Shown: piece by piece, positions 8,718 to 64,000 of the stretch
How positions within the stretch are numbered: position 1 is the first letter of the stretch
Layout: each line of letters opens with the position of its first letter
Origin: Maylandia zebra
Lineage: Eukaryota; Chordata; Actinopteri; Cichliformes; Cichlidae
Direction: 5' to 3'
DNA length: 64,000 nucleotides
NCBI RefSeq assembly: GCF_041146795.1
Contig: NC_135176.1
Span: 15,245,286 to 15,309,285 of the forward strand
Notes under the pieces: generated by a model
What the model saw: the letters and a program-made list of their open reading frames with translations, nothing else
Told to the model about the DNA's origin: nothing
Databases searched by the model: none
Made by a program: the position numbers and the translations under genes

Positions 8718-8782
<65 letters not shown>

Positions 8783-23959: not shown

Positions 23960-24108
23960 CTACGAGCCTGTCGCCTTGACAGTGATGGTGACGCTGACTG
24001 GCTCATTATCGTCTCCAGAGGGAGGGGCTTGGCTGGTGGTTGTTAGGGTGGCACTCATAGGTGAAGAAGTGAGGGGTGAAGATGCCCGGGGTAAAGCCAT
24101 GGCTGGAC
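23960..24108 (-). CDS. Alternative Ser/Thr/Pro-rich terminal exon of copy A
   Basis: Acceptor TTTTGCAG precedes GTCC. The frame needs one base from the previous exon and codes 49 residues plus TAG (starts PAMALPRAS, ends VSVTITVKATGS). The copy B counterpart (35976-36130) keeps the acceptor, frame and stop, differs mostly at third codon positions and has a 6-nt in-frame indel, so it is very likely coding. Exon 24266-24389 already ends in a stop, so this exon must join elsewhere. A phase-1 donor is available at the FN3 exon (27097), giving a soluble form, or at the transmembrane exon (24596), giving a new cytoplasmic tail. Confidence 0.75.
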
Positions 24109-27100: not shown

Positions 27101-29029
27101 TGTCTTTGGAGTAGAAGGGTGTCCCACAGTGCGGTGGTTCACCGGTATGATGCGAAACTGGTAGGTAACCGTTGGCGTCAGGCTCCCCACTGTATAAATC
27201 CTGACAGCTGGATCCTGGAGGATGTTACGGTACCAGACTACGGGACCAACTTTCTCCTCCTTCCCACTTCCTTTCCTTTGTGGTTGCTCAGACATATTTC
27301 GGTGCTCCAGGAAGAAACCTGTCCAGCCTCCAACTTCCTGGTTCTTCACCACCCACTCCAGCTCCACCTCATTACGCTGTCGACTGGTGTACATCACTCT
27401 GACCAGGGTTGCATTGGGTGGCATGGGGTACTCTACAGAGATAACACAAACAAAAATATCCTCATCTGTATGACTTCTTTGTGATGACCACTTGTAACTT
27501 TTTATATAGCTCATCGACTTTCAAGTGGACTGTAACTTTATGGACAATAATTGTACAAACATCAGAGGTGTTATAGTATTCTGATCTTACACTCAGCAAG
27601 AAAGTAATTTAGAATTAAACATAGATTAATAATTCTTACTCTTGATGACTAAAGTGATATTGATTTCGGTTCCTCCCACTGCGTTGGAAGTGGAGCACCT
27701 GTACTCGCCGCTGTCTTGAGTTTCATCTGTGTCTCTCACAGTCAGATTGGCCCATGCAGACGTTCTCAGAAGCATGTACTTTGAGGTGTCTTGCACACCG
27801 ACACCCTGATTATTAAACCAGGTGATTTCATTGACAGGAAGGTAGTTGTCTCTCAGACTGCAGGTAAGCTGAACGTCGCTCCCCTCGTACACAGACACGA
27901 CTCTGCGCTGTGTCTGCAGCACTGGTGCCTCTACGTGTGACAATGTACAGACTAATTATTTAACAATTTATATCTGCTATTTGTTGTACAGTGAGAATGT
28001 GCACTCACCCAGTGTGAGTCTGCAGGTCTTGGTTTGGACCAGAAGTGGGTGTTTAGCGTGGCAGGTGTAAGGTTTCCCACTGCGAGCTGTGCCATAGTGG
28101 AGGATCAGGATGTTGAAGGTTTGTTCCCCACCTTTGCTCTGACCTTCGGGGCCCTCCCACCACACCAAGGCTTTCGGGGCCCCTCCCTCCCAGGAGCAGG
28201 ACAGCGTCAAGTATTGTTTGTCTTTAGTCACAAAAGCAAAACACAGTGGCTCTGCAGGGGGAATATCTGATGAAGGAGAGGAGAGATATAAACACATTCA
28301 GATACATGATCACAAAACTGCCACTAACTTATCTTTTACTGTTTGTTGACATTGCTGCACTCACATGTGCGTGTGCTGCACTGTGTCGACTGTTTCAGGG
28401 CAGGATGGGAGCCCAGGCATGTAAACAAACTGTTATTAGAAGTCAGTCCTCCAGAGGGCAGCATGATGGTAGTGCTGGAGGCTGAACTTGTTAGCTGGGC
28501 TGTGTTGGACTGATCTTGTATCAGGTCTCCAGTCCAGTGGAGGGAAGGTGAGGGGAATCCACCAGGCCAGGAGCACAGCAGCCGCAGAGAGGTGTGATTC
28601 AGAGCCGGCTCCACAGAACAGGACGGGGAGCCATCAGGGGGGTCTGTGGGGATATGATAGAGGTAACAAGGTAATGATGTGCCGAGTGGAGTAAACTGAT
28701 GTCATCAGGGCCCGGAACCTTTTTTTTTTTTCCAACTATTGCTACATTGTTAAGGTTGTTTGGTTAAAATAACTATACATAAATTATCGAAGAAGAGATA
28801 TGTTGTTATGATTTTGCTGTTTTTTTCTTTTGTTGGTGGTGGAGTTCTTCTGAAAATGTAATCTTAGCAAATAGCAAAAACATAAGACGTGTGCAAAACC
28901 AAAAGTAGGGAGAGTGAATGACGTGCTTGCCATGATTGTGACGTCACAGTGAGATACCTGCCAGAGAGTCCCATCAACTTCCAAGATGGTCCAAACAGGA
29001 GAACAGCTCAGCAAGCTTTCCATTATCTG

Positions 29030-29068
<39 letters not shown>

Positions 29069-32000
29069 TGAGACAGAGTTTGAAGGCGTTTAAGCTTTTG
29101 AAATAAGTATATCAGATGAATGTGCTGAATGGAGTCAGAAGACATTCAGAAAAAGAAACTGAAAAGGATTCTGCATTAAGTGAAATGATCAGGGAGATGT
29201 TTCTAGGTCAGAGATCCTGGGTGAAAATCAAAGATGTTTAACCTCCTAGGACCTGGCATCCACATATGTGGACATCACATTTTGGGTTGTCTAGACCAAA
29301 AAACGTAATTTTGCTCTACAAGGGCCTGATATCCACTTATGAGGACATTATACTGCCCCTGTTTTATCAAAATTAAAAACGAATATCCTCATATGTGGCT
29401 CTCTTTTTCTTAGGAACAAAAAATTCTGGTGATTCTTTGTTTTTACATTCATCGGGTCCCAATATGCCCAAATATCAAAGAGAAATTAAAAATACATGCC
29501 ATGGAAGAGTTTGGGTCTTAGGAGTTTAAGCTGTTGATAGTATTGTACTGAAAATGTCAAATCTGAACAGTTTGATCACATTTGACTCTTTTACACTCCT
29601 TGCAGTAACAAGAGAACAATAGGCTTTAGGGTAGAATTGACAGAGGAGTAAGATGCTTAATAGCATGATCAGAGATCAGAGGTCACACTCACAGTAGACG
29701 GTCAGGCTGATGGTTTTTTTGGAGCGGGTGTTAAGGTAGGTGTTCAGAGCCAAGCAGGCGTAGTCGCCAGTGTGCATGCGGAGGATCTTGGTGATGGTGA
29801 GCTGCGGCCCGCTGTAGACCTGTGAGTTGTTGTAGAACCAGACATACTGACTGGCTGGATTGGACTGGGCCTGACACAGCAAAGAAACAGTCTCTCTCTC
29901 CAAAGCCGAGTAACCCCGCTCTGTTATACTGTACGGAGTTACGTTTATCTGAGGAATGTCCGGGCCGACTGAGGAGAAAAATCATTGCTGTGAAATTTAA
30001 TGTGATGGACCTTCTGCTTCATTTAAAAATTGTCCACAAAAGCTGACTCATAACAAAATGTTTCATCCAAGTTAGTTTAGATTCACAAGATGACATTTTC
30101 TCTGAGAGTGACAAATGCTGATGATGCTGTAATTTACTGATTACTCACACAGAAAATGCCAAAGACAAGTTTAAATTACACAGAAAATATCAAAGTCATA
30201 CCAATTTCTGTTTCTTTAAGACTGTAACTTAAACCACTGTCTTATTCTTTTTGCTTCTTTTTAAAAAAAAAAAGTTTTACAAAAATCTCCATATTGATCC
30301 AACTTCCTCAACTTACAGATGGTGTCCAGCCACAAGCGGTTGGAGCTTTCACTGTTAACTGCGTTGCTGGCCACACAGCGGTACCAGCCGGTGTGGTTGC
30401 GGTTGACGTCGGTCACATTGATAACACTGCTGTCGCCCTGTGCGATGATCGTGATGTTACCACTGCGGGTTTCATGTTGCCACACGTACTGGATCGGTCC
30501 AGTCCCATTTTCCAAATTGCAGCGCATCCACATTGTAGATCCTTCCACTGGAGATACTTCACTCAGCGAGAGGTAAGGCTTAGTGACGGGGACTGCATTG
30601 GCGGCGAAGAAACACAGTGTTCAGTAACTGGAAAGATCATTTTACAAACAGAACAAAGCTGCAAGTTCCCACAAGCAGCAACATTGGAGATTGAACATGA
30701 GACCAGTGTCAAAAGGGGCCCTACAAAGGGGCCCTATGGCTAATTTTTTACTTTCTCCTGCCTTTACTTATGCTAATTTCGATTACAAAACAGGAGCTCA
30801 CCACTGTTAGCATTTAACATTTTCAATGCAGTCATTTGACAAAATAATGTTTCCTTTTCGGTATTTAATCTAACAGCTTTTCTACAGTCTCTGCTCCAGT
30901 CGAAGTGAATGAATTTTTTAGCAATAGTTCTTTCATGTCTACCATATTGCACTTAATGAGCTTCTCAAACATATTTCTTGGGTGGTTGGTGATGTTTCCT
31001 GGAGGTTGCTGACTCTCACTTGTGGAATCTGGTTGCAAAGAAAGTGCTACACCAAAACCCTCTGTGTGATTGCTTTGGTTGCTATCAGAGTGCCACAGTT
31101 GCTTGTAGTTTTTTGTGTTTGTCTGCAAGTATCCACTAACTACTAGCTAAGTTGCAGTTGGTCAAGGCCTATGTCACTTAGGCCTTCTTCATGTGATCCT
31201 ACATTGAAAACTTGATTGTTAAACATTTAAATTTGCTGACAAGTTAATTGTGTGGTTAGTGGTCACCTGTCTGCAAAACCTCAATACCGTTTATGGAGGC
31301 ACTTGCCAAACAAGCTAGTTTACATAAGCTGGGCCTCCACCCCCTTATCCTAAAATTCCTATTTTGTGGGCTTGAAAAAACAAGCTCACCCTTTAAAAAG
31401 GGTGAGAAATAATCGGTAGTGCCTGTATTCATCTTTTGTATGCAGTCTATGGTCCCTCTATGGCCAGCCTTAATACAAAGCTATAATCTCCTGATTATAG
31501 GGAATTGTGTTTTAGACTTTTATAATCTAAATCGTCTTTGCCAAATAAAGTAAAGAAGCCTTTATTTCATAAAGTTTTAAAATGCTCTGTTCAAAAGACC
31601 AACAAATAATCAAAAGACAAAGCAGCACATGCTGAACAGTAGAGTTTCTTAGATGATAAAAGTCAAAAAAAGAGAGAAATATCTACAGATTTTTATTTTC
31701 AGTTGTTCCATCTCTTCCTCTTTCTCTCCAATGCACATGGCAACAGGGATAGTAATACACTGTATAATAATTTAGGATAATACACCCAAGTAAACACAAC
31801 AAGTCTACTGTCCTATTTTGGAATATATAAGACAAATTAGCCATGTTGGAGAAATTGGGCAACAAGACTGAATGTCAGTCTCTGTTTCAGCTATAAACTG
31901 ACTAAAAATTTGTAGCATTCATGACAGCAGGAAGTCTTACCTCGGACAATGAGATGCACGTAGTAGTAGTAGACTTTGGGCTCGTTCTCTATGTCATAGA

Positions 32001-32950
32001 AAGCCTGGCAGGTGAATAAGCCTTGTGCAGCCAGAGGCAGCTTCTCAATGCTTATAGCTGCACTGTTTGAGATGACAGTCAGCTGTCCCAGCGTCTCAGC
32101 CAGCTTCTGAATCTTCGGTCCTCGTCCCACATTATACACCACAGCTTTTATGCCTTCAGTACCAGGCTTGGTGAAGCTCCATATGTACATGTCAGGTACA
32201 GAAGGACCACACTCCAGGATCACGGCTTTGCCCACTACCCCATACACACTGGCGTCCTGGTACACCACCTCATACATCTGGGTGTCCTTGTACACAACCT
32301 CTCCATTGGGGTTGATCTGCAGGGCTGGTGGTGGGAAAGGATACAAAGATATGAGTGTAAAGGAACAGGAGACGCTGGTGTTGTTTACCTCGTCGGTGTT
32401 CGGTCACAGGATTGATTACACAGTGAGTCTCAGAGGCAGCGTAACATTGTTACAAGTGATTCCAGGCATTTCTTTTCCTTAATTTCCACATGCAGGTTCT
32501 AAAACAGCTTTTGCTAGCATAGCCATTCTGCTTGTTATCTACAGTGCCCTGTGACCCGTCATTTAAATCAGTAAGAACCAAATAACTGTAGATGCATCAG
32601 TGTATTTGCTGCTCACCCCAAATTTGATTACAGAAATGCCAAATATATGTTCTTGGCGAATTTTGAAATGTTATATTGAATACTTTGCATTATTTATACA
32701 GTCTACATACTGATATGTGCTTTCAGAAAATGTAAATGTATGACATGCAAGTATTCAAATCCTACATTTTTGCAACAGCATTCCAGATCATGAAGAATTC
32801 ACTTCTCTTAATTTGCTGTTTTAAAGGATGTTTAAAAAGTAGGGGTTTAAATGAATCCACAGACACTGGAAAACTCTTACCATTTGACCCCAAAGTGACC
32901 AGACTGGTAGTTAGATATAGAATGGCCAGTCCTAGCAGTGGAGCCACCAT
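23960..32950 (-). CDS. Ig/FN3 transmembrane protein, copy A (VSIG10L2-like, tentative)
   Basis: This is a predicted cell-surface adhesion or receptor protein. Exons of the membrane form: 32881-32950 (signal peptide MVAPLLGLAILYL), 31941-32324 (Ig1), 30317-30592 (Ig2), 29693-29968 (Ig3), 28365-28643 (Ig4), 28009-28266 (Ig5), 27640-27930 (Ig6), 27097-27432 (FN3), 24596-24718 (transmembrane, VIGAAIGGMLFAAILTVLLL), 24488-24512 and 24266-24389 (tail, stop TGA). All domain exons start and end in phase 1, giving 813 residues. Cys pairs, core Trp and Y-x-C motifs are visible in the Ig domains, with many N-x-T/S sites. An extra exon, 23960-24108, offers another C-terminus. The domain order and the presence of chek1 nearby recall VSIG10L2, but the name needs a search. 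Tandem copy B follows upstream on the same strand. Confidence 0.92.
24968..25842 (-). mobile_element. Tc1-like transposon remnant in copy A intron
   Basis: The terminal repeats are inverted: CAGTTCTAGTCAGATGTTTA near 24,970 and TGATGAGTGTATGAAAATCT near 25,810-25,830. Between them the minus strand codes transposase pieces (YVWSKGETFKAKSTVP). It lies between the FN3 and transmembrane exons. Confidence 0.75.
25843..27096. other. Copy A intron sequence with nothing recognised
   Basis: AT-rich intron between the transmembrane and FN3 exons. No exon with both splice sites, and no repeat I can name. Confidence 0.5.
29031..29066. repeat. (TG)n microsatellite in copy A intron
   Basis: A pure TG run lies between the Ig4 and Ig3 exons of copy A. 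Confidence 0.95.
29238..29529. mobile_element. piggyBac-like MITE with TTAA ends
   Basis: The element is bounded by TTAA at 29238-29241 and 29526-29529, the target duplication of piggyBac elements. The inner ends are inverted: CCTCCTAGGACC and GGGTCTTAGGAG. It is about 290 bp with no coding capacity, in the intron between the Ig4 and Ig3 exons of copy A and absent at that place in copy B. Confidence 0.75.
30593..31940. other. Copy A intron between Ig1 and Ig2 exons
   Basis: No supported exon or named element. AT-rich with several short open frames lacking splice context. Confidence 0.5.
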
Positions 32951-35975: not shown

Positions 35976-36130
35976 CTATGAGCCCGTCGCCTTGACGGTG
36001 ATGGTGACGCTGACTGGCTTGTTATCGCCTCCAGAGGGAGGGGCTTGGCTGGTGGTGGCGGGGATGGGGGTGGCAGTCATAGGTGAGGAGGTGAGGGTTG
36101 AAGCTGCTCGGGGTAAAGCCGTTGCTGGAC
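35976..36130 (-). CDS. Alternative Ser/Thr/Pro-rich terminal exon of copy B
   Basis: Acceptor TTTTTCCAG precedes GTCC. It codes 51 residues (starts PATALPRAAS, ends VSVTITVKATGS) and TAG, in the same phase as the copy A exon. Substitutions between the two copies are mostly synonymous, which supports translation. It lies beyond the stop of the regular tail exon, so it requires alternative splicing. Confidence 0.75.
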
Positions 36131-39100
36131 CTGGAAAAAGACAAACATCAAAGACTATTGTTGGCATTTTGTTTTTTTCAACAAAGCTCATAATGAGGGA
36201 AAAATGAGCACATATCTATTAGAAAATGAAGTTCAGTCCAATTCATCATTTGCATCTATGCAGATGGGTAACTAAGAGTGCTGGCATTGATTATTGCTAA
36301 AAGATAAAGTCATAAAACAATCAAATAAACAACAACAACAAAATCCATAAAATAGAACCTAATGAATTGGATTTTTTTTCATTAATTAAAAATAGAAAAT
36401 AATTTAATCTGGACTCGAGACTATGAATCTATAAATGTGTCTATTCAACTTTCCTGGACTGGGTGATCCACCAGTTGCTCCCTCTGACCCACCAAACACT
36501 TAATCCTCTGGGAAGTTGATGTTTTCCTGCGACTGGCTGTGCTGCCTGCAGTCATCATCAAAGATGAAAAGGCATTACAAATAGTAATCGTTACCATCAG
36601 CGCTGCGAACTGGAAATGTTTCATTACCAGTCACCAGACACTTCATTAGGTACACCTGTTCACCTTATTGTTGAAGGGGTCCTTACCTGTGCATAAACAG
36701 GTTTTTGCCATACCTGCCAAAGCCCCGCTGCATTTGTGGCTATAAGTGTGAGTTAGAGCTGACCCGCTTAATGCTTATGTTTTCATTTTAGTAGAAGCAG
36801 CTGAGAAACAGTAGAATACAATGTCAAGCTAATGATTAAAGGCAAGGAGTAGATGTCTAAAAAGGGAAAATATATGAGTGTTGCCTCTGTGTCTAAAGGC
36901 CTTTACAAACCTAACTAGTAAAATTCATGCTAATGTTTCCAGCGTTAGTCCAAATAGTTTTTATACTCGCCTGTCTTACTAAAGTTGTTCACAGCCGTTA
37001 ATTTCATATGATGAATATTCTGCATTTGTCTTTTTGGATCAAGCTCGATTTTTCTAATTTTTCAGTATAGAATAAACAGATCTCATCAGTCAGATTAATG
37101 CTTTTGGCAACAAGTGCGCTTTTAAACTCAAAACTGACTGCTTCGGGTCAATCGTCTCTAAAATGATTTCTCTGCCTCCTCAGATCTGGGCCCATCTCTG
37201 CTAACTCGAACTCAACGTGCGCCACTGACATCCTGAAATATGTACAAAAGTGTCGATGTTGCAGTTTCAACTGCTGCATCAAACCATGAAATTGTCCCTG
37301 CTGCTCCCTTCTCTTGAGAACTGCATGAAACCTGAGTCTCAGTTCCACTTTCCTGCTTAGAAACTTCAGAAGCAGCTCATCGTCTCTTGATGTCGACCTC
37401 TTTTTTCCCCCCAAAGTTCCTCTTTTTTTTAGACTTATACTGTGTATATATACATTACAAAAACAAGTTCACATGTGAAAAATACTGAATGTGCAGGAAT
37501 CTGAGGTGAGTCTTTAAAAAAAAAAAAAAAAAAAATTTTATTAGTCCGTACTATGCAAGTAACTGGGAATAAATGCTAGAATGAAAGAATCTCAAGTTCA
37601 GAGGGTCCATTACCAAGTTTACTTATTTAAAAATAAGTAATACTGTGAATACGTACTATGAGACTTTTAGTAAATAGCCACATGGGACCACCCACCAGTG
37701 GGCCCGCCATTTGCAGGTATTGACATCAATTGTCTTGTTGAACTTTATATTGCAATATCAATAGTTGAGAGCAAGAACTTTCTTTTACCAGGAAGAAACC
37801 TCTGACAGAAGCAGGCTTAGGGAAGAGCAGCCATCTGTCTTGAGTGGTTGTAGGGGTGGAGGGGAAAGAGAAAAGAGAAAGCAAACATTCCTGCTAAGAG
37901 CGGCACATAAACACAGGCTGTAGCAACATAACTAAGAGCTGCTTGAGGGTTGCTTTATTTACTGCAATCTTAATCAAAAGGGAGGTAGAGCAGTTGTCCG
38001 CTTTCTGATTCTGGAAATTCTCAGAATCAGAAATAAGCCTTGAAACGGAGCTTGAAGGGCTCTATCGGGATGATATAGTACAAAAAGAGTTTAGAATTTA
38101 ATAGAGCCTGATTATTCAGGCTCGTTCTTTCCAGTCCTTGTTATTACTCTTGCTGCAGTGTTTTGAATCAGCTGACAGCTAAAAGTATAAGCAGAAAAGA
38201 CTCACTAATATTTACAAATGCAGGATGAAGAGCTCCATTCGGGCATCTCTTGACGGTGGCGTTTTGTACAATTTGGAAGGCACAGAACTAGAAAAAACTG
38301 AAGAAATTATATATCTGCTGAGTACAGAATGCCTTGTTTTTCCCCTGGAGGACCTGACATGATGGGGCAGGTGACCTCTATAAGCTGTAGAAACACCCCC
38401 AACCTGAGTCAATTTCTTTTAGATGTTTCTTACTGTTAGGAAGTTTTTTCTTACCATTGTAGCCAAGTGATTGCTCACAGGGGGTCATTTGATTTTGGGG
38501 TTTTCTCTCTATTATTGTAAGTTCTTTACTTTACAATATAATGCTACTCGAGGCAACTGCTGTTGTTATTTGGTGCTGTATAAATAAAATAGAATTGGAC
38601 TGAATTGAACTAAAAAGCACTGGATGATGTTTTCAAGACCTTACTTAACTTGTTACCCCTTGAACATCTCTTGAGTACCTTTAATAACAAGTTTTGACAC
38701 CTGAGTAATGATCAATAAAGACATGGTTTGATGATCATTAGAATAGATTCTGTGTTTTCCCGAGGTTATCCCTTGCAAGCTGTACAAGCAGAGGTTACCC
38801 ACAATAACTTCTGATGAACATGTAGCCGTTTTGTTCTGGAAACAAGACTGAAACATAACAGAAATGGTTCAGGTCAGAAAATATCACAGAGAATTCAGAC
38901 AGATTGGAAAGTAAAAGATGGTCCAACCCAATACTACCAGTGTGTACCTAATAAAGTGCCGGGTGAAGGTTGCAACAGATACACATATACTTACAAGCCA
39001 AACAGCAAGTCATGGAGTCCTGGGGGAAGATACAGAGTATTAAAGCTACATAATGTTGCTTTATGCACAGGTCAGCAAGATGCTGGTGGTGGTCATGTGT

Positions 39101-42100
39101 GTGGAGGACTCACGAGGATTGATGCTGCAGTTACGGAGGATGAACATGAGCAGCAGAACAGTGACAATGGCTGCAATCATCCCACCAATAGCTGCTCCAA
39201 TCACAGCGGGGTACAAATTGTTGCGTGGTTCCACTAAAACACATCAGAGTTAAACATTGCAAAGGAGCTGAGCTCTGTGAAAACACATCTGCAAAGTGAT
39301 AAGCATTCACCGTACCGTTATCCCATAATAGGAATGACTACTAGGTTCCACATTAATGTAAACTCTGTTGAACTAGAGTATTGTGGGTTAATTTTTCAGA
39401 TACATTTTAATACATTTTTGTTAAAGCCCCCCACCCACTTTGCCCAATTCTTTGCCAGTCTCATATGTCTCGCATTTCCTGTACCTGGTGTCTTTGGAGT
39501 AGAAGGGTGTCCCACAGTGCGGTGGTTCACCGGTATGATGCGAAACTGGTAGGTAACCGTTGGCGTCAGGCTCCCCACTGTATAAATCCTGACAGCTGGA
39601 TCCTGGAGGATGTTACGGTACCAGACTATGGGACCAACTTTCTCCTCCATCCGCTCACTTGAAGAGTCATTCCCACTTCCTTTCCTTCGTGGACGCTCAG
39701 ACAACCATCGGTGCTCCAAAAAGAAACCTGTCCAACTTCCTGCTTCCTCATTCTCCACCACCCACTCCAGCTCCACCTCATTACGCTGTCGGCTGGTGTA
39801 CATCACTCTGACCAGGGTTGCATTGGGTGGCATGGGGTACTCTTATACACACATAAAACAAACATAAATAAATATGACTTCGATATGACATCAATCCAGT
39901 TTGTATATCTAATCAATTAATGTGTGGATTTCCATTAAATAATGTGTAGTCAATTCTCAGACTACTAATTACTTTTAAGTAATACTTCTATTACCAATAT
40001 ATTAAACTGGAGATATTAACCCCTCGGCTGAATTTAGACAGTGAAAGCATTGTCTAAACTGCACAAAAGTAAAAAGTGAAAGAATGAGTTTTCCATGTTG
40101 TTTTTTTGTGTATTGAATTCTGATTTAAGGTGTTTTTAACTGGAAAATATCAGGAGAAGAAGTCGACACATTTCCCTCTCGCTTCACATCTTTATTCTAA
40201 GCTGACTGAGATTCATATGCTGTACAGACTCAAGGAATGTAATACAGTTCTCAACAGGGAAATTATTCAACAAGCCCAAAAAAGATCAGAAAAATAAAAC
40301 AGGTCCTTACTCTTGATGACTAAAGTGATATTGATTTCGGTTCCTCCCACTGCGTTGGAAGTGGAGCACCTGTACTCGCCGCTGTCTTGAGTTTCATCTG
40401 TGTCTCTCACAGTCAGATTGGCCCATGCAGACGTTCTCAGAAGCATGTACTTTGAGGTATCTTGCACACCGACACCCTGATTATTAAACCAGGTGATTTC
40501 ATTGACAGGAAGGTAGTTGTCTCTCAGACTGCAGGTAAGCTGAACGTCGCTCCCCTCGTACACAGACACGACTCTGCGCTGTGTCTGCAGCACTGGTGCC
40601 TCTACGTGGGACAATGTACAGACTAATTATTTAACAATTTATATCTGCTATTTGTTGTACAGTGAGAATGTGCACTCACCCAGCGTGAGTCTGCAGGTCT
40701 TGGTTTGGACCAGAAGTGGGTGTTTAGCGTGGCAGGTGTAAGGTTTCCCACTGCGAGCTGTGCCATAGTGGAGGATCAGAATGTTGAAGGTTTGTTCCCC
40801 ACCTTTGCTCTGACCTTCGGGGCCCTCCCACCACACCAAGGCTTTCGGGGCCCCTCCCTCCCAGGAGCAAGACAGCATCAAGTATTGTTTGTCTTTAGTC
40901 ACATAAGCAAAACACAGTGGCTCTGCAGGAGGAATATCTGATGAAGGAGAGGAGAGATATAAAAACGTTCAGATACATGATCACAAAACTGCCACTAACT
41001 TATCTTTTACTGTTTGTTGACATTGCTGCACTCACATGTGCGTGTGCTGCACTGTGTCGACTGTTTCAGGGCAGGATGGGAGCCCAGGCATGTAAACAAG
41101 CTGTTATTAGAAGTCAGTCCTCCAGAGGGCAGCATGATGGTAGTGCTGGAGGCTGAACTTGTTAGCTGGGCTGTGTTGGACTGATCTTGTATCAGGTCTC
41201 CAGTCCAGTGGAGGGAAGGTGAGGGGAATCCACCAGGCCAGGAGCACAGCAGCCGCAGAGAGGTGTGATTCAGAGCCGGCTCCACAGAACAGGACGGGGA
41301 GCCATCAGGGGGGTCTGTGGGGATATGATAGAGGTAACAAGGTAATGATGTTTAAAGTGCGGTGAAATCAAGGCCCAAGAAAGATGTTGTGTATTTACAA
41401 TGTTGGGCATGAGTAAGTTATAAAATTATTTGATTATATACACATATTTTGGGAAGCTGAGTTCAGGTTCATGAGCAACACCCAGGCCTGATTACTGACA
41501 GAACCAGAAGCTGCTTTACTGGAATCTGTCTGACAAAGTGAAGTAGGCGAAAAAAAACTCAGATAGCAACACATCAAAGTTCTAAAGAAACTCAAGAACA
41601 GATGAGAAACAACGTCACTGACATCTATCTGTCTGGAAAGGGTTACAAAGCTACTTCTAAGTATTTCGGATTCCAGCGAGTTATCCACAAATAACAAATC
41701 AAAACTTGGAACAGTGATGAAACTTCCCAGATGTAGCAGGCCTACCAAAATTACTCCAGTAGTGCATCAACAACTCATCCAGAAAGTCACAAAAGAACCC
41801 AGAAAAACATCTAAAGAAATCGAGGCTTCACTTTCCTCAGTAAAGGTCAGATTTCATGATTTAACAACAGCAAAGAGACTAGGCAAAAATGCTCCAAGGA
41901 GAAAACCACTCCTGACCAAAAAGGATCACAAAAGCTTGTCTCACATTTGACAATCACAAAACACGTTAAAATGGGTTAGGAGTCGCCTTGGAGTGGGCTA
42001 TAGCAATGAAATGGCCATTATATTTCTCTACCATATTTGTCCAATAAACATGGAGCATGGTCTGTCTTTGTAGAAACTGAGGTGTGGCACTTCTGCTTCT

Positions 42101-45100
42101 TGTTATTTCTTATTGACATCTTTAATTAGTATCTGAGTCAGACGTCATCCCCATACTGTGTTCATCCCCACAGCCAAGGATGAATTAAAACAAAGGAACC
42201 TATGAGGATTTCTGCATTATGGTAAATGTTAAATGGCCTGTATTTATATAGCGCTTTACCAGTCCCTAAGGACCCCAAAGCGCTTTACATATCCAGTCAT
42301 CCACCCATTCACACACACATTCACACACTGGTGATGGCAAGCTACATTGTAGCCACAGCCACCCTGGGGCGCACTGACAGAGGCGGAGAGGTTTAATTAC
42401 AGGAGAGGTTTAATTGAAAGTGAAATGATCATAATGGTTAGAGGTCAGAGGTCACACTCACAGTAGACAGTCATGCTGATGGTTTTTTTGGTGCGCGTGT
42501 TGAGGTAGGTGTTCTGTGCCAAACAGGTGTAGTCGCCAGCATCCACACGGAGGATCTTGGTGATGGTGAACTTCTGCCCGGTGTAGACCTGCGAGTTGTT
42601 GTAGAACCAGACGTACTGACTGGCTGGATTGGACTGGGCCTGACACAGCAAAGAAACAGCCTCCGTCTCCAGAGCTGTGTAGCCCTGCTTTACTGTACGA
42701 GGTGGAGTCACATCTATTTGAGGAACATCTGGGCCAACTGATGAGAAAACGTAGCAGTGCATGTAAGATATACAAGAAACAAACAACTTATGCTGAAAGC
42801 AGAGCAAGAAAATGTTGTTAAGAGCTAAAATTCAAACCAGGGTACAATGAAAAGTTTTATCATGTGATCCATGTAGGATCACACACAAAATTACTGCATC
42901 CTGTTGCCATTAGGTCACCAACTGTGGCGGTCATTTGTTGTAAAGCAGCTATAATGCCAAAAATTACTCACTCAGTCTGATCAGAAAAAATAAGCCATTG
43001 ACCAAAATATCATGATTTTGGTCATTTTTTCTTTTATCCAGTGATTCCCTACCTCAGCTTCAATACTTACAGATGGTGTCCAGCCACACGCGATCTGATG
43101 TCTGGCTGTTGATATTGTTGCTGGCGACACAGAGGTACCAGCCGGTGTGGTTGCGGTTGACGTTGGTGACGTTGATGATGCTGTTGTTGCCCTGTGCAAA
43201 TGTTGTGACGTCTTCACTGCTGGTTTCACGTTGCCACACATACCGGATCGGTTCAGTCCCATTTTCCACATTGCAGCGCATCCACATTGAAGATCCTTCC
43301 ACTGGAGAAGTATCACTCATCAGGATGTAAGGCTTATTGACGGGGACTACAATGAAGATGAATAACACAGATGTGTCTGGATGTTAACAGTCAGTAGTAG
43401 AACTGAAGGGCAGTAAACAAACACTAAAAAGATGATCTTATAATTTCATTTCCAGTATGTGTAAACCTTTGGCCAATCAGGACACCAAACTGAGAAAGAG
43501 GCTCAAAGTTTCTCGAATAGTATAGGTTTAATCTGATGTGGGCATGTTAATACAAAATGACTAATAAATGCTGATGCAGTGATACTATTTTATGAAGATA
43601 AAGGGACATGTGTATACCATTTGTCATTATGCTCAGACTTAACCAGTCATGTTTTGCAGAGTTCAAAGGACAAATTGTTGTCGCTGAGATTTTTTTTAAT
43701 AGATCAAGTAAAGACAACTCTTAAATGGTCAGCTTTAGAGGCACAATGAACCTTAAAAATTTAAAAAACAAACAAACCCCAGCTTATGAACACTGATAAG
43801 ATCATTTTGAATATATTTGTACTGCTGTATAATTTTGGGTAGTAAGACATCACATATAGATTTTTTAGCTGGTGGTCAGTTATTGCATGTGTTGTATCAA
43901 AGGACCTCAGATGCTGATTTTAAAATCATGTTAGTTTACTGAAAGATAGATAATTTGTTTCCAGGTGGAAGGAACACTCCAAATAATTTCCCGTGTATAC
44001 AAATGTGACTCTGCACTGCATCAGCATCGATCAAAAAGAATGAAGTGAAAATGTGCACTGACCCAGCGTGAGTCTGCAGGTCTTGGTTTCGACCAGAAGT
44101 GGATGTCTAGCATGGCAGGTGTAAGGTCTCCCAAACCGTACAGTGCTATAGCGAAGGGTAAAGTTGTTGGAGGTTTCTTCTCCACCTTTGCTCTGACCTT
44201 CGGGGCCCTCCCACCACACCAAAGCTTTCGGGGCCCCTCCCTCCCAGGAGCAGGAAAGCGTCAGATACTGTTTGTCATTAGTCACATAAGCAAAACACAG
44301 TGGCTCTGCAGGAGGAATATCTGATGAAGGAGAGGAGCGATATAAACACATTCAGATACATGATCACAAAACTGCCACTAACTTCTCTTTTACTGTTTGT
44401 TGACATTGCTGCACTCACATGTGCGTGTGCTGCACTGTGTCGACTGTTTCAGGGCAGGATGGGAGCCCAGGCATGTAAACAAACTGTTATTAGAAGTCAG
44501 TCCTCCAGAGGGCAGCATGATGGTAGTGCTGGAGGCTGAACTTGTTAGCTGGGCTGTGTTGGACTGATCTTGTATCAGGTCTCCAGTCCAGTGGAGGGAA
44601 GGTGAGGGGAATCCACCAGGCCAGGAGCACAGCAGCCGCAGAGAGGTGTGATTCAGAGCCGGCTCCACAGAACAGGACGGGGAGCCATCAGGGGGGTCTG
44701 TGGGCATATGACACAGAAAAAAGTTATTGTTTGGCAGCGATACTAAAGACGTTAGGTAGAAATTATTATATCAGAATAAAATAAGTGTTTTCATCATTCG
44801 ATATTTCCACTTCCCAAGAGAAATTGTTTGTGTGTCTGTGAGTACACAAGTAAGAAGAACACACGGTAGTGGTACAGGGCCAACAAAGGAGTTGAAATCA
44901 TGGTCAAGAGGTCAGAGGTCACACTCACAGTAGACAGTCAGGCTGATGGTGTTATTGGAGCTGGTGTTGAGGTAGGTGTTCTGTGCCAAACAGGTGTAGT
45001 TGCCAGTGTGCATACGGAGGCTCTTGGTGATGGTGAACTTCTGCCCGGTGTAGACCTGGGAGCTGTTGTAGAACCAGACGTACTGACTGGCTGGATTGGA

Positions 45101-48100
45101 CTGGGCCTGACACAGCAAGGAAACAGCCTCCGTCTCCAGAGCCGAGTAACCCCGCCTGGTCATATTGTACGGAGTCACGTCTATCTGAGGAATGTCTGGT
45201 CCAACTGAGGAGAAAGAATATGAATTCTTTCCCTTAATCAAGAAATAAGGGACACAGGCGTGTTATGTGAAAAACTCATATTAGTCTGATAAGAAATCTT
45301 GTTTTATGCTACAGTAAGAAAATTAACCCTTACTTGATACAGCCATAACTACAAGCTTTATCAACAAGGAAAGCTTCAAGCCCAATCTTAAAAGTAGAGT
45401 AGCTCTCTGTCTCCCAAACCCAAAGAGGGAGCTGCACAGTAGAGACCCTGATAGCTAAAGGCTCCGCTTCTCAGTGTACTTTAGGAAAATCTAGGAACAA
45501 CAAGTAAGCCTGCACTCTGAGAGCACTCAAAATGTTACTGTTAGGTTTTGAGGATGTTATGTAAATGTGTAATTAAGGGCTATATGTGAGTAGAGGGACT
45601 TTTAATTTGGTTCCTGATATTACAGAAAGCAAGAAGTCTGAGGTGTTTTCGAGCATCTGTGGGATTTGTCGGCGATATAAGTCAGATCTATGGAGGCCCT
45701 ATCTTGCAACGTATGGGAATTAAAGGATCTGTTGCTAAAATCTTGGTGCCAGATACCAGCACATTCTCTTTAAATTTAATCAGACATAAAATATCAAAGA
45801 AAAAACTGAATCATGCTGGGTACTAAAAAAATCCAAGTATAGAAAACAAAAATTTCGCTTACTTGTGGTCTGTAACAGTTGTGTGCTTTTAATTGCTTGT
45901 AGTTTTTTAATGTATTTACTGAAAACTTGTTTTAAAAATGTTTATATATTAAAACTCACACAGAGTGTTCAGCCACAGGCGGTCAGATCTCTCGCTGTTG
46001 ACGGCGTTGCTGGCAACACAGCGGTACCAGCCAGTGTGGTTGCGGTTGACATTGGTCATGTTGATGATGCTGCTGTTGCCCAGTGCGAAGGTTGTGGCGT
46101 TACCATTGTAGGTTTCATAGTGCCAGGTGTACTGGATCGGTTCCGTTCCATTTTCCACACTGCAGCGCATCCACATTGAAGATCCTTCCACTGGAGAAGC
46201 ATTACTCATCAGGATGTAAGGCTTACTGACAGGCACTGTGTTTAAGACAAAATCATACATGCAGGTCTGTTGAAGAAGAATATTGTCACATTTTTGACTA
46301 AAAATATGGATTATATGTTAACCTCTGGTATGTAAGCTTTAGTCAAATCCAGGTTCAAAGCTAAGAAAGGGGTCAAAGACTTCAAAATATTTGTCCCAAA
46401 GTTTTTCTCAACCAGTATAATTTTGTTCTTGGTTTGACCAGACAACATCTGTAATGGCCTGCTCATATATTAAAATGCAGATTTAATAGGAAATATAAAG
46501 CATGTTTACAAACTGGTAAAATAAATTCTTTTGGTCTCTATGGATGCAGTAGTTTCTCTATTCATGACAGCTTTCCTGTTTTCCTGTCTTCCTCTCTTCA
46601 CCCCAAACTGTCGATGCAGATGCCCGACCCTTAGTAACCCTGTTTCTGCTTGAGGCTTCTTCCTGTTAAATGGGAGTTTTCCCTTCCCACTGTCGCCAAA
46701 GCGCTTGCTCATAGGGGGTCATATGATTGTTGGAGTTTTCTCTGCTTTCTTTGTATTATTGTAGTATCTATCTTACAATGTAAAGCACTTTCAGGCAACT
46801 CTTGTTGTGATATGGTGCTTTATAAATAAAACTAAATTGAATTCGTGTGGTTGAGCAAATTCGTATGATGAGCATTTGTTATAACGAAGCATCACTCAGA
46901 TAAACGTGACATATTTTAACTTATTCTATGTAACATCCTGAATTAGAAAATATAAATTCAAATAAATTAATAATGGCATTTACGTTTTATTCCTTCCATT
47001 AAAAAGGTCTAAAAAATGTCTGGATTTGTACATGAAGTTGTCACAATTCAAAGGCTTAAAATTTTAAGGATCCTTTAAAATCTTTGTGCAATGTTTGTGT
47101 AGAAGTGATAACATGGTTCTCAGATTAAGTAAGCTGAACATCACTCGCACCGACCCAGTGTGAGGCTGCAGGTCTTGGATTGAACCAGAAGTGGGTGCCT
47201 GGCATAGCAGGTGTAAGGTTTCCCGCTGTGAGCTGTCCCGTACGGGAGGATGAGGATGTTGGAGTTTTCTTTTCCACCCCTGCTCTGGCCCGCAGGTCCC
47301 TCCCACCACACCAAGGCTTTAGGGAACCCTCCTTCCCAGGAGCAGGACATCATGAAGTACTGTTTGTCATTAGTCACGTCAACAAAACACACTGGCTCTG
47401 CAGGGGGAATATCTGATGGAGGATAAATCAAATGAGTGATGTTGAAAGTGTATAATCTTCACATTTACTCTCTCATTTGTTTAACTTTCTGTTGTTCTTT
47501 GTTGACATTTCTGCACCCACATGTGCGTGTGCTGCACTGTGTCGACTGTTTCAAGGCAGGATGGGAGCCCAGGCACGTAAACAAGCTGTTATTAGAAGTC
47601 GGGCCTCCAGAGGGCAGCGAGATTGCAGTGCTGATGAGGATGGTAGTGCTGGAGGCTGAACTTGTTTGCTGGGGTGTGTTGAACTGATCTTGTATCAGGT
47701 CTCCAGTCCAGTGGAGGGAAGGTGAGGGGAATCCACCAGGCCAGGAACACAGCAGCCGCAGAGAGGTGTGATTCAGGGCCGGCTCCACAGAACAGGACGG
47801 GGAGCCATCTGGGGGGTCTGTGGGGGGAGAACATATGAAGTTAGAAGTTGGTAGGATATTCATGAACAAGAAAGATGAAAATAAAAGTTGTTTGTAGTGT
47901 TTTATTAAAAATGTGAAATTGTGATTTTAATGACATTGTAGTGTTTTATAATCCTGGTAAATGCAGTACAGCGATGGAACAGCTCAGGTCAGTGCAGCAT
48001 ACAAGGATTGACAGAGGAGTAAGATGATTAATAGCATGGTCACGAGGTCAGAGGTCACACTCACAGTAGACAGTCAGGCTGATGGTGTTATTGGAGCTGG

Positions 48101-51100
48101 TGTTGAGGTAGGTGTTCTGTGCCAAACAGGTGTAGTCACCAGTGTGCATACGGAGGATCTTGGTGATGGTGAACTTCTGCCCAGTATAGACCTGGGAGCT
48201 GTTGTAGAACCAGACGTACTGACTGGCTGGATTGGACTGGGCCTGACACAGCAAGGAAACAGCTTCCGTCTCCAGAGCTGTGTAACCCCGCCTGGTCATA
48301 GTGTACGGAGTCACGTCTATCTGAGGAATGTCTGGTCCAACTGAGGAGAAAGAATATGAACGCAAATCAAGAAATAAGGGACACAGGCGTGTTATGTGCC
48401 TGTGAAACAAAGAAATCTTTGTTTTATGCGACAGAAAGCAAACTAACTCTAACTTGATCCATCATTAACTACAAGCTTTATCAACAAGGAAAGCTTCAAG
48501 CCCAAGCCCACATAACACAGGCGTGTTAAATGCAGATTACAGAAAGCTAATAAGAAATCCAGTTTAAAGTAGGACTCTTACTTAGTTTTACATTAGCAGT
48601 TGAGACATACAGCAGCTAAATTAACCCTAATATGTGTAATTCCCTAAAAATTCAGATAATTGCATAATTTTTGTACTGTGATCAGCATTTTTTGAATTTG
48701 GGGATAAAAGCCAAATTCTTAACAGGGCATTACTTTTTTTTTTAGATGGAAACAATACAGAAGTAAATAAATTTAACTGAAAAATGCTCAAAACACCTTC
48801 AGTGCATTAAGTTTTTACATACTGATGCTTTCTTTTAATTGTTAAATGAAGAAATGAATAACGAATGAAGAAATAGGTCTGCCTGATCTAATTATACTCA
48901 CAGAGGATGTCCAGCCATAGACGTTTGGAGCTCTCGCTGTTGACGGCGTTGCTGGCCACACAGCGGTACCAACCGGTGTGATTGCGGTTAACTTTGTTCA
49001 TGTTAATAATGCTGCTGTTGCCCATTTCAAAGGTTGTGGCGTTACCATTGTAGGTTTCATAGTGCCACACATACAGGATCGGTCCAGTCCCATTTTCCAC
49101 ACTGCAGTTCATCCACACTGTAGATCCTTCCACTGGAGGAGCATTGTTCACGAGGAGGTAAGGCTTGCTGACAGGCACTGTGGTTAAGATAAAGTTACAC
49201 ACGTGAAGGTATGTTTACCGTCTTCACTGAAAATGAGTCACAGTGTTCAATAAATAACACAATCTTCAGCTTCGAAGAGGCTTTGATATCAGTTAATCTT
49301 CCCAAGGCTCCTCCCCCTCAGTACCAAGGACCTCATTTTTGCACTTATAGCCCAGTCACAAACATCACACCCTTCAACTCCATTATATACTTTATCACAC
49401 CATTTTTGATTGTTAATGCACTCTGGCTGTTGTCTTTCTTCTGTCAGGAATGCTTGATGGCATGTTTAAGAGAACGTGTCAGATTCTAACATATTTCAGA
49501 GTCTCCATCTGCACTTCACTGCCTGGGACCTGGGCCTGTTTTTGTGTCTTCCGATGTAGTCACAAGGCCAACAGCAACTCCTGTTTAATCTGTGCTTGTA
49601 GTAGTAGAGACCTGAGACAAGTACAACAAACAAGATAACTGCTGCATGCACAAGGAGGAGGATCTGGTCTTTGCCTGCAAAGACAAACAGCCTGGCTCAC
49701 AGTTACCTTCTTGGTAATTTTCTGAGCAACCAAATACATAAGCTCTCCTCTTGTATCGCTTTAGTGGAAACCACGTTTCCACTGCAAGTCTCTTTGGAAA
49801 CTTCTTTGAAAAACATCTTTCACTACGTTGAGCAGCAAAGCGAAATACTGCCATTGATGGCTAGTAGCTTGAATCAAGAATCACTGATCACAGCAGGTGA
49901 CACTGACAAGCATCTTGGAATTTATGGCAGGCTGTGTTGACCAACTGAGCTCCAAAACTGTGTGTAGGGTGATATGAAAAAAGGGCCCACACCTGTGTGG
50001 ACATCAAGGTGTCACTTTATGCCTTCACTTTCTTGGCCTCCACATTTGGTGTACTATTCTCTCTTTCGTGACTCTTGGTTAATGCGGTCTTTATATGTAC
50101 ATATTTATAGAATTAAAATTATGTCCATTAACTATTGTTTTTAAAGTTTGGTCAACACATAGGGCACCAAGATGAAAGATGGCCCAAAGGTTTTTTGTTT
50201 CTCCAAGATTATTTTGCAACTGCTTCAAATATTAGTTTCTATAAAGCCGCTGAAGTTTTTCACCTTGTGCAGACTAGCTCTTTTTTGCCGTGATCTGAGA
50301 GTGTTTAGGAAGAACATTGTTTCTGAGGGGAGTTCTTACCTCGAACAGTCAGATGGACATAGTAGTAGTAGACTTTGGCCTCCTGTGCTATGTCATAGAA
50401 GGCCTGGCAGGTGAATAAGCCATGTGATGCCAGAGGGAGCTTCTCGATCTTTAAAGCTGAGCTGTTTGAGATGACTGTTGGTTGGCCGAGTGTCTCAGCC
50501 AACTTCTGGGTCTTTATTCCTTGACCCACATTATACACCACAGCCTTTATTGCTTCAGTGCCGGGTTTGGTGAAGCTCCATATATACATGTCAGGCACGG
50601 TGGTACCACACTCCAGGGTCACCGCGTTGTCCACCACCCCATACACACTGGTGTCCTGGTACACCACCTCCCCTTTATGATTGATCTGCACATCTGGAGG
50701 AGGCAGAGGATACAATGGCCAATGTGTGTGGGTACAATGTGTGTGGGTCCATAAAATAATGGACCCACACACAAACACTTTGTTTGTGAGTGTCTATTAA
50801 GCAACAGGAGACGGTGGTGTCAAATGCCTGGTCAGTGTTCAGTTGCAGGATTGATTACACAGTCAGTTTCAGAGGCAGTGTAATGTTATAAAAAGCAATT
50901 CTAATATTTTTTTAATGCCAGATTCAGTTTTCAAACACATTTTCTTTCTTCTTTGTTTTTAATTTCATCTGCAAGGTTCTGTATATCATCATTTGATCCA
51001 TGTGAGACAAATACAAACAGATTTATCCGTTTTTCTGTTTAAAAAACATTCCAAAATCTCAAATTTTTTTGAGCATAACGAATTTTGAAATGTGACAGAG

Positions 51101-51353
51101 AGTAAAAAATACCATAGAAATTGTAATAAGTCTTTACTAGTTTGTCTGTTATGCAATAATTCCAACAGAATTGCAGGTACTGAAGTACCTACTTAGGTGA
51201 TGTTATAATAATCAGTGTCTGATGTTATGTAGACAATAACAATAAAAGTGTAAATTAATCCACGGACACTGGAAAACTCTTACCATTTGCCCCCAAAGTG
51301 ACCAGACTGGTAGTTAGAAACAGAACAGCCAGTTCTAGCAGTGGTGCCACCAT
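35976..51353 (-). CDS. Ig/FN3 transmembrane protein, copy B, with 14 Ig domains
   Basis: Tandem paralogue of copy A. Exons: 51284-51353 (signal), 50340-50693 (Ig1); cassette 1: 48902-49177, 48065-48340, 47521-47817, 47155-47412; cassette 2: 45960-46235, 44929-45204, 44419-44697, 44063-44320; cassette 3: 43071-43346, 42462-42737, 41036-41314, 40680-40937; then 40311-40601 (last Ig), 39485-39841 (FN3), 39114-39233 (transmembrane, AVIGAAIGGMIAAIVTVLLL), 38995-39019 and 36500-36545 (tail, stop TAA). The frame is open throughout and codes about 1,515 residues; phases are 1-1 for every domain exon. It is a predicted cell-surface adhesion or receptor protein. Alternative terminal exon 35976-36130 is also present. 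The tail ends at ENINFPED, 23 residues earlier than copy A. Whether all cassettes enter one mRNA is inferred. Confidence 0.88.
37148..37414 (-). pseudogene. PIF/Harbinger-type transposase N-terminal fragment
   Basis: The 88-residue frame contains FCTYFRMSVAHVEFELAEMG and then PDLRRQRNHFR. It resembles the HARBI1-like pattern in which F-x-x-YFRMS precedes an F-x-x-LL-x-x-VGP-like stretch. No DDE core follows. It is inferred to be a transposon relic. Confidence 0.55.
37780..38610 (+). mobile_element. LINE-derived dispersed repeat fragments
   Basis: Segments such as GAAGCAGGCTTAGGGAAGAG, CTCTTGCTGCAGTGTTTTGA and the end GGTGCTGTATAAATAAAATA with a GAATTGAA tail belong to a common fish LINE-related repeat. 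A related 3' end is at 46,560-46,850, and an internal piece at 45,350-45,540. Confidence 0.65.
41440..41960 (+). mobile_element. Tc1-like transposase remnant in copy B intron
   Basis: The plus strand codes RPTKITPVVHQQLIQKVTKE and, after a short gap, KRLGKNAPRRKPLLTKKDHK, the DNA-binding part of fish Tc1 transposases. Only the N-terminal half is left. It lies between the second and third exons of cassette 3. Confidence 0.82.
42223..42392 (-). repeat. SINE 3' fragment in copy B intron
   Basis: Same family as 60,777-61,099 (TATAGCGCTTTACCAG, CCCAAAGCGCTTTACAT, TGGTGATGGCAAGCTACATT), in reverse orientation and lacking the tRNA-like head. Confidence 0.75.
44063..46235 (-). other. Copy B cassette 2 (Ig6-Ig9)
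   Basis: Four exons of 276, 276, 279 and 258 nt. The first two resemble cassette 1 (shared YNGNATTF and NTSSNNTISLTVYC), while the third is nearly identical to copy A and cassette 3. The fourth differs in its second half (FTLRYSTVRFGRPYTC) and has donor GTCAGT. The mosaic suggests duplication followed by partial conversion. Confidence 0.9.
45350..45540 (+). repeat. LINE-related repeat fragment
   Basis: AATCTTAAAAGTAGAGTAGC and GGAACAACAAGTAAGCCTGC match the internal part of the same common fish repeat found at 37,780-38,610. A short piece of it recurs near 48,470-48,510. Confidence 0.55.
46560..46850 (+). repeat. LINE/SINE 3'-end repeat in copy B intron
   Basis: The end reads GGTGCTTTATAAATAAAACT followed by AAATTGAATT, a typical fish LINE 3' end. 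It lies between cassettes 1 and 2. Confidence 0.6.
47155..49177 (-). other. Copy B cassette 1 (Ig2-Ig5)
   Basis: Four exons of 276, 276, 297 and 258 nt. The third has an 18-nt in-frame insertion (six residues around TTILISTAISLPSGG). Its donor is GTGGGT, and the fourth exon's donor is GTCGGT, both poorer than the GTGAGT seen elsewhere. This cassette is the most diverged of the three. Confidence 0.88.
49178..50339. other. Copy B intron between Ig1 and cassette 1
   Basis: About 1.2 kb. Overlapping frames of 89 codons exist on both strands around 49,585-49,940, without splice context or a recognisable domain. I cannot name this stretch. Confidence 0.5.
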
Positions 51354-62885: not shown

Positions 62886-64000
62886 CTAAAGAAAGAAGGA
62901 TGATTCACGATGGAGAAAAGATGCCTGACATGACGGAGAACATCATACTGCTCAAGTTTGAAAGATCTTAGATGAGCCACAGATGTCACACAACAAATAT
63001 GATTTGAGGCAACATTCCTATTGTAGGAAATGAGTTTATCCCACTTGGGTCAGGCCCATCATTTTTTAGACAGTGGCACAAGTTTTGTAATTGTATCCCT
63101 GTACATCATAACGTATTTAAAATTAAATCAAATCAGAAAAGATAGATTAAAAAATCTTTATTTGCCACATACTAGAGACATTGAGCAGCGATTAGAGTCA
63201 AAGCTAAATAAAACAAAGATCAATTAAGGGGCAATATTTCAAGTTATTCCAAGTTTAAGGAACAGCAAGTCACTGTAAATTACTATAAACACTTAAATAA
63301 CTATAGTATGAAAACATATTGCATGCTATGGAAATGTTTATTACACTTGTGTGTATTTTAGTCAGTCCTTATTTTGTTTCTTGCCATCATTCTGATTGTG
63401 GCAGGAGCGAAGCTGTAGTGGAAGTGTGCTGTGTCTGCTGTGCTGCGTCTCAGGCTGTGTGCTGATTGTTTTTTTATTGTTATTAAGGATGGGGATGTCT
63501 CTGATGATATGAAGTGCTCTTATCTTACAGTGGTTTGTTTCATTGATGGAAGATGAAGCCTTATAATCCCTCTGCAGTCTTTATGACTCTCTGGAGAGCC
63601 TTCCTCTCGGCCTGGGTGGTGTTTCTGTACCAGACAGTAATGCCAGGAGTCAGGATGCTGTCCATCAGTTCTCTGTAAGCTTGAGTGAGGGCATGAATGC
63701 TCACTTCTGCCTTCCTGAGCAGCATGATGAAATAAAGCTGCTGCTGCTGGAGCTTTTTCACTGTTGCTGTGATGTTTACAGTCATAGTCAATGTCACATG
63801 AAAACCAAAGAACTTGTGGCTGTCGGCTCTCATTACCTCAGTCCTATTGATGGCTATAGAAGCGGGGGGTGTTTTCTGAAGTCTGCAATTATTTGATGTT
63901 TTTTTTATGTTAAGGAGGAGGAGGTTATTCTCCTCTCTGTAGACATTGTTTTTAACCAAGTCCCTATATGCAGACTCATCCCCCACCTTTTATGAGCCCG
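62886..64000. other. Upstream nectin intron to window edge
   Basis: No exon for the start of the V domain or a signal peptide was found. The right end holds a LINE fragment (63,561-63,990). Confidence 0.55.
63561..63990 (-). mobile_element. LINE reverse transcriptase C-terminal fragment
   Basis: A 141-codon frame includes DESAYRDLVK, REENNLLLLNIKKT, SHKFFGFHVT and GITVWYRNTTQAERKALQRV, the well-known end of a fish non-LTR retrotransposon ORF2. The frame is open here but lacks the catalytic core; the rest may lie beyond the edge. Confidence 0.85.

Follow-up and report, generated by a model that had tools for sequence, protein, structure and literature searches.

A tandem pair of VSIG10L2-like genes in Maylandia zebra, one of them carrying a predicted in-frame triplication of a four-exon immunoglobulin block

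Results

Two tandem genes with immunoglobulin ectodomains

The stretch of Maylandia zebra DNA analysed here (assembly GCF_041146795.1, contig NC_135176.1, positions 15,245,286 to 15,309,285; 64,000 nt, hereafter the window, to which positions refer) carries two tandem VSIG10L2-like genes on the minus strand, termed copy A and copy B (Table 1). The conceptual model of copy B spans 51353-36500 (-) and comprises 19 exons encoding 1515 amino acids (aa). The reading frames of both conceptual models are open, and both follow the same domain order, consisting of signal peptide, V-set immunoglobulin (Ig) domain, one or more blocks of four exons (a, b, c, and d), last Ig domain, FN3-like domain, transmembrane (TM) segment, and tail. 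Signal exon, FN3-like domain, and TM exon each occur once per gene; copy A counts 6 Ig domains and copy B counts 14. All introns from the signal exon to the TM exon are in phase 1, namely 16 in copy B and 8 in copy A.

The array of copy B (49177-40680, minus strand) is composed of three tandem blocks, B1, B2, and B3, each made up of four phase-1 exons whose limits were set from in-frame acceptor and donor sites. The blocks start at 49177, 46235, and 43346, resulting in spacings of 2942 and 2889 bp. Exon lengths are the same from block to block (Table 1), apart from B1 exon c, which measures 297 rather than 279 nt because of an 18-nt insertion. A self-comparison of the window returned five three-copy families between 40661 and 49185. 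In tblastn, same-type exons of copies A and B share 68-70% (a), 76-81% (b), 89-100% (c), and 76-98% (d) aa identity with E-values of 2e-41 to 2e-57, which exclude a chance likeness of the blocks; matches between exon types mostly reach 25-35%. As a conceptual gene, copy B is open throughout the array and holds tandem repeats of a symmetrical unit of several exons.

These observations bear out an earlier note made from the sequence letters (the original prediction), which had placed the array at 40680..49177, the exact ends of its 12 exons, and had described three four-exon blocks of equal lengths starting about 2.9 kb apart, with a single block in copy A. Three further claims also stand, namely that the blocks share their domain signatures, that phase 1-1 exons allow blocks to be added without harm to the frame, and that the ectodomain would grow from 6 to 14 Ig domains: each block exon of copy A matches its own-type counterparts in copy B, and the 14 domains are present as conceptual domains.

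The Pfam matches of copy A above cut-off are V-set, I-set, Ig_3, Ig_2, and C2-set_2, and its fn3 match falls short (Table 1). Exon d of B3, the sole d exon scanned alone, stayed below every Pfam cut-off. An AlphaFold2 model of domain d (pLDDT 80.1) gave two PDB matches at E <= 0.001, with query TM-scores of 0.49 and 0.67 and root-mean-square deviations of 6.3 and 7.6; the structural matches of this B3 model include IgNAR C3, at modest scores, and lend modest support to an Ig fold for domain d. The corresponding model of domain c was unusable (pLDDT 47.2). In every block, the cysteine count is four in domain c and four in domain d, exceeding that of the other Ig exons by two; in alignments the additional cysteines fall near the domain ends. 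N-glycosylation sequons number 37 in the copy B model, the TM exon contributing one, and 12 in copy A, with up to 6 within a single a exon.

The intron between exons b and c of B3 harbors a Tc1-type transposase fragment (41606-41947, +; HTH_Tnp_Tc3_2, E 3.2e-5, 24.6 bits, below the cut-off of 31.5). No inverted repeats of at least 40 nt were found within 40-50 kb.

Table 1 Features of the VSIG10L2-like gene pair, with positions in the 64,000-nt window.
Feature	Position	Strand	Remarks
Copy A, complete gene model	23960..32950	-	12 exons, 855 aa, one block
Copy B signal-peptide exon	51284..51353	-	MVAPLLELAVLFLTTSLVTLGAN; 90.0% identity with copy A exon 32881-32950
Copy B exon 0, N-terminal V-set Ig	50340..50693	-	Phase 1-1; copy A counterpart passes Pfam V-set
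B1 exon a, Ig	48902..49177	-	276 nt
B1 exon b, Ig	48065..48340	-	276 nt; 96.7% identity with B2 exon b
B1 exon c, Ig, C2-set_2	47521..47817	-	297 nt including 18-nt insertion
B1 exon d, Ig-like	47155..47412	-	258 nt; weak donor GTCGGT
B2 exon a	45960..46235	-	276 nt
B2 exon b	44929..45204	-	276 nt
B2 exon c	44419..44697	-	279 nt; 279/279 nt identical to copy A exon c
B2 exon d	44063..44320	-	258 nt
B3 exon a	43071..43346	-	276 nt
B3 exon b	42462..42737	-	276 nt
B3 exon c	41036..41314	-	279 nt; 278/279 nt identical to copy A exon c
B3 exon d	40680..40937	-	258 nt; 252/258 nt identical to copy A exon d; modelled Ig-like fold
Copy B exon 4, last Ig (I-set in copy A)	40311..40601	-	290/291 nt identical to copy A
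Copy B FN3-like exon	39485..39841	-	Copy A counterpart: Pfam fn3 23.4 bits, below cut-off 25
Copy B transmembrane exon	39114..39233	-	Hydropathy maximum of 2.69 at aa 1466
Copy B tail exon 7	38995..39019	-	25 nt
Copy B tail exon 8 to in-frame TAA (36502-36500)	36500..36545	-	Copy A reads GAA there
Copy B last exon	35976..36130	-	Open, retains PVSVTITVKATGS; dN/dS 0.28 against copy A
Putative converted tract, B side	40306..41351	-	1046 bp, ungapped, 98.9% identical to copy A 27635-28680, two introns included
Putative converted tract, A side	27635..28680	-	Exons c, d, 4 and the introns between them

Old blocks and later sequence exchange

Silent divergence (dS) and the ratio of non-silent to silent divergence (dN/dS) were computed exon by exon with our own Nei-Gojobori script, and dS between copies proved very uneven along the gene. 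Exon a lies at 0.33-0.46 among the B blocks and 0.37-0.49 against copy A, and the A/B values of exon 0, the TM exon, and the last exon are 0.63, 0.34, and 0.30. For exon c, dS is 0-0.014 among A, B2, and B3 (99.6-100% identity) and 0.095-0.111 against B1. Low values recur in exon 4 (A/B, 0.015), the FN3 exon (0.088), exon b of B1 and B2 (0.086, with other b pairs at 0.26-0.41), and exon d of A and B3 (0.07, with other d pairs at 0.30-0.65). Outside the homogenised stretches, dS amounts to about 0.26-0.65. The domains appear constrained, because no compared exon pair with silent changes reaches a dN/dS of 0.65; the ratio ranges from 0.15 to 0.64 in exons 0, a, b, d, FN3, TM, and last (the computation covered neither the signal exon nor tail exons 7-8).

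The near-identical tract shared by copies A and B (Table 1) stops abruptly 5 bp past exon 4, and the last part of the FN3 exon forms a second near-identical A/B patch beyond a diverged intron. The longest identical exon runs measure 221, 293, and 226 nt, above all of 10000 shuffles (0/10000) in 3/3 comparisons. Introns were compared in 24 pairs with 60 shuffles per pair, and nine pairs reached z >= 6: all six c-d pairs, B1/B2 a-b (z 63), A/B1 b-c (z 23), and B1/B2 b-c (z 8.6). Five further pairs scored 3.8-5.0 over at most 36 nt, and ten remained below 3. The b-c intron of copy A is close to that of B1 (z 23, 154 nt) and far less so to that of B3 (z 5, 36 nt). We discarded a candidate scheme that made B3 the only orthologue of the copy A block: the likeness of exons c, d, and 4 to B3 stems from exchange, and the b-c intron favors B1.

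As silent divergence is so uneven, alignment between introns other than c-d is mostly lost, and the near-identical tracts include introns, the triplication reads as old and as followed by later exchange. We infer that the near-identity of the tracts arose most simply by gene conversion. With regard to GC-biased conversion as a cause, the GC content at third codon positions in exon c (0.59-0.62) is not raised relative to the other ectodomain exons (0.53-0.77), and the total GC content of exon c (0.57) is the highest among ectodomain exons (others 0.50-0.55).

The cytoplasmic tail of copy B

Tail exon 8 of copy A appears to be bounded by a GC donor (CTAG/GCAAGA, GC-AG intron; 24281-24292, -). 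Copy B reads GA at this donor, and its tail exon 8 runs into an in-frame stop codon (Table 1). Its last exon is identical to that of copy A at 132/149 aligned nt and would be in frame when spliced straight from the TM exon. The tail of copy B may be spliced otherwise, or decay of copy B may be starting. The long intron before tail exon 8 of copy B also contains a 106-aa open frame (37151-37468, -) with no Pfam match.

Decay in the full sense, with a vestigial array and a protein that has ceased to be made in full, appears improbable. The premature TAA, the lost GC donor, and the weak donor of B1 exon d speak for it, but the exons from signal to TM are all open with splice sites present, the constraint described above extends to each compared exon pair with silent changes, and the last exon has kept both its frame and a low dN/dS (Table 1) and can join the TM exon directly.

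Integrity of the array

Since exon c and the sequence around it are nearly the same in several copies, an assembly artefact could be suspected, with one or two blocks falsely copied via repeat mis-joining. We regard this as very improbable: the B blocks diverge by 11.6-21.7% in exons a and d, and introns other than c-d are mostly unalignable between blocks (z >= 6 in 3/18 pairs), a pattern that uncollapsed alleles or mis-joins would not give. As judged from the assembly itself, it is highly contiguous, with 962 Mb in 63 contigs and a 34.9-Mb contig at this locus. Equally improbable is strong selection, rather than gene conversion, as the source of the near-identity of exon c; the c domain is identical at 92/92 aa in A, B2, and B3, but so nearly are the silent sites and the c-d intron, and the A/B tract halts abruptly at intron edges.

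The original prediction had treated the array as one gene. Queried with the signal and TM exons of copy A, tblastn found one counterpart of each in copy B and none between the blocks, a search that an unrelated signal exon would escape. Searched for hydrophobic ATG starts, the interval 40301-51300 gave one candidate, at 44406 on the minus strand, in the c-d intron of B2. Three short genes in place of one are the least probable alternative of all, since the even block spacing and this single start are set against a signal exon and a TM exon that lack a second copy and against block exons that each pass phase 1 on to the next block.

Genome-wide copies and neighborhood

The whole assembly contains five matches to exon 4, of which two are strong (A and B) and three show 29-32% identity, and four matches to the FN3 exon, of which A and B are strong and two have E-values near 0.5. 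Exon c gave ten matches at E <= 1, of which four are strong (A and B1-B3), four fall on the d exons, and two are weak hits at other sites. The strong places of all three queries lie inside the window, and no third gene was seen in the assembly with them. Pattern scans with exon 4 (14 matches in viral contigs, 97 in genome contigs) yielded no confirmed relative.

Related pieces at 22821-23466 and 57008-57563, 67-83% identical and in the same orientation, flank the gene pair; they may belong to a dispersed repeat or be left over from the duplication that produced the pair. At 17.2-17.4 kb the window contains a CHK1 kinase exon (E 2.3e-28). A complement factor B/C2-like gene at 2963-10813 (-) continues in L014; one SCR exon was matched, and the von Willebrand and serine-protease parts were recognised by eye, with two scanned frames giving no von Willebrand match. 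It is adjoined by a C-type lectin domain exon (L014 2826-3248, -), which we take to be possibly layilin. On the other side, a nectin-1-like V-set exon is found at 62610-62885 (-; E 8.8e-28), and a second nectin-like exon was noted by eye downstream (L015 5926-6405). Frames resembling the reverse transcriptase of long interspersed nuclear elements were seen by eye at 63520-63989 (-) and L015 9099-9998 (-); the sole Pfam match of the one scanned was ALKBH8_N, below cut-off.

Relationship to VSIG10L2

Mammalian VSIG10L2 is described as having five Ig domains, one FN3 domain, and one TM segment (PMC12409954; this and the other papers given by PMC number are cited from excerpts). The fish pair follows this order, with six Ig domains in copy A against these five and an fn3 match below cut-off. 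A rat VSIG10L2 antibody peptide covering residues 756-772 reads DPIQESIDAPVNVTITV (PMC12409954), and the tail of copy A reads DDNEPVSVTITV. Within this single short peptide, PVxVTITV is common to the copy A tail ...DDNEPVSVTITVKATGS at 7/8 residues. The copy A tail ends in ...GDDNEPVSVTITVKATGS, which contains PVSVTITV; the same end occurs in the last exon of copy B, but downstream of the stop. As to neighborhood, the window has the CHK1 exon; one gene list for chicken chromosome 24 (0.1-1.9, a 1.8-Mb interval) includes both CHEK1 and VSIG10L2, and a narrower one (0.1-1.1) includes CHEK1 alone of the two (PMC6356198). We have named the pair VSIG10L2-like, and it most likely represents fish VSIG10L2. 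This protein is described as a marker of type I vestibular hair cells in rat and human (PMC12409954, PMC11156867), with virtually no information on its function (PMC12409954); the excerpt of a VSIG review covers VSIG10 and VSIG10L (PMC9520664).

Discussion

We consider it likely, with good confidence, that the locus is a tandem fish VSIG10L2 pair in which the four-exon Ig unit of copy B was tripled long ago in frame and later subjected to gene conversion. The two genes would encode type I membrane proteins of the adhesion type. An ancestral unit of four phase 1-1 Ig exons would have been multiplied to three in copy B, most likely by unequal crossing-over, so that the predicted ectodomain went from 6 Ig domains to 14 with the frame intact. 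Repeated conversion would have followed, chiefly of exon c among B2, B3, and copy A, and of exon b between B1 and B2. We postulate that the longer and more glycosylated stalk sets the V-set domain at a greater distance from the membrane, and that, in line with the prediction for mammalian VSIG10L2, the protein has a role in adhesion. The original prediction had the single gene model, the in-frame triplication, and the growth of the ectodomain right, and had overlooked gene conversion and the stop in the tail of copy B.

Several points weigh against this explanation. The VSIG10L2 assignment draws on one 17-residue peptide, on domain order, and on a loose neighborhood; copy A has six Ig domains and mammalian VSIG10L2 five, and a second chicken list (24: 0.1-1.1), as excerpted, gives CHEK1 without VSIG10L2 (PMC6356198). 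That one mRNA joins all 12 block exons is a prediction from the genome sequence, and the donor of B1 exon d scores 0.21 against 3.59-6.86 for the other d exons, a weakness that would permit in-frame skipping of this exon, although equally low or lower scores are seen for the exon 4 and exon 5 donors. The stop and the lost GC donor in the tail of copy B could mark a decaying gene or lead to nonsense-mediated decay. The run-length shuffle test assumes uniform rates along exons. Finally, the A/B duplication may have preceded or followed the block duplication, with the b-c intron of copy A pointing to B1 rather than B3.

More speculatively, exon c may be a homogenised recombination hub. B3 exon c lies 3383 bp from B2 exon c, and an A to B exchange spans 12.7 kb; unequal exchange over these distances could add or remove four-Ig blocks or fuse A with B, respectively. 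Ectodomain length would then be an allelic or species length dial on a hair-cell surface protein, with the tail of copy B altered by skipping of exons 7-8. We hold this extension to be unlikely. For the tandem pair with an old triplication and later conversion, the unconverted exons retain the age and exon c retains the exchange, which makes old multiplication and recent exchange readable separately. With a long ectodomain in one gene and a short one in the other, the fish pair would, moreover, let the effect of length be tested.

Comparison with known systems

The pair resembles mammalian VSIG10L2 in its order of signal peptide, Ig row, FN3-like domain, and one TM segment and in the PVxVTITV tail; CHEK1, which has an exon near the pair, occurs with VSIG10L2 in one chicken chromosome segment (PMC6356198). 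It differs from the five Ig domains of the mammalian protein in having 6 in copy A and 14, in three blocks, in copy B, and further in its two tandem genes and the early stop in the copy B tail.

The closest PDB sequence to copy A is that of CEACAM5/CEA. This protein consists of a V-set domain and three A-B Ig units, has a glycosylphosphatidylinositol (GPI) anchor, and is not known to contain FN3. Copy B has a comparable layout, a V-set domain ahead of an Ig unit present three times in tandem, but the CEA unit has two domains and the fish unit four.

Complement receptor 1 (CR1) contains repeats built of SCR domains, not Ig domains. Like copy B, it carries a big domain cassette in tandem within one gene. 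The large CR1 repeats vary from 3 to 6 between alleles by unequal crossing-over (PMC4842007); their number is thus a known polymorphism, whereas the fish array is read from one assembly.

Zebrafish CEACAMz1 comprises an N-terminal V-set and ten C2 domains, with one exon per Ig domain and phase-1 introns throughout, and its authors explain genes of this type through symmetrical exon duplication (PMC8274849). Both systems are fish membrane proteins with a V-set domain, a long Ig row, one exon per Ig domain, and phase-1 introns. CEACAMz1 differs, as excerpted, in its GPI anchor, in a two-type A/B alternation, and in being made of Ig domains only; the unit of the fish pair comprises four exons, and a CEACAM-type Ig-only ectodomain was not found here, as an FN3-like exon (Pfam match slightly below cut-off) precedes the TM exon. 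CEACAMz1 has synteny with atp1a3, gsk3a, grik5, and others, whereas the fish pair lies beside matches to CHEK1, an SCR gene, and nectin-1; the CEACAM neighborhood common to human and zebrafish is absent from its flanks.

In primate CEACAM ectodomains, gene conversion between Ig receptor paralogs affects the N-domain and is tied to pathogens by the authors (PMC8860441). The fish pair resembles this case in domain-scale exchange among Ig receptor paralogs, but the exchange concerns a C2-type exon and acts both within and between genes. Judged by paper titles, we found no description of this gene structure in fish; a mention inside the body of a paper could escape such a search. The multiplication of domain blocks has precedents in CEACAMz1 and CR1 and is of a kind already known.

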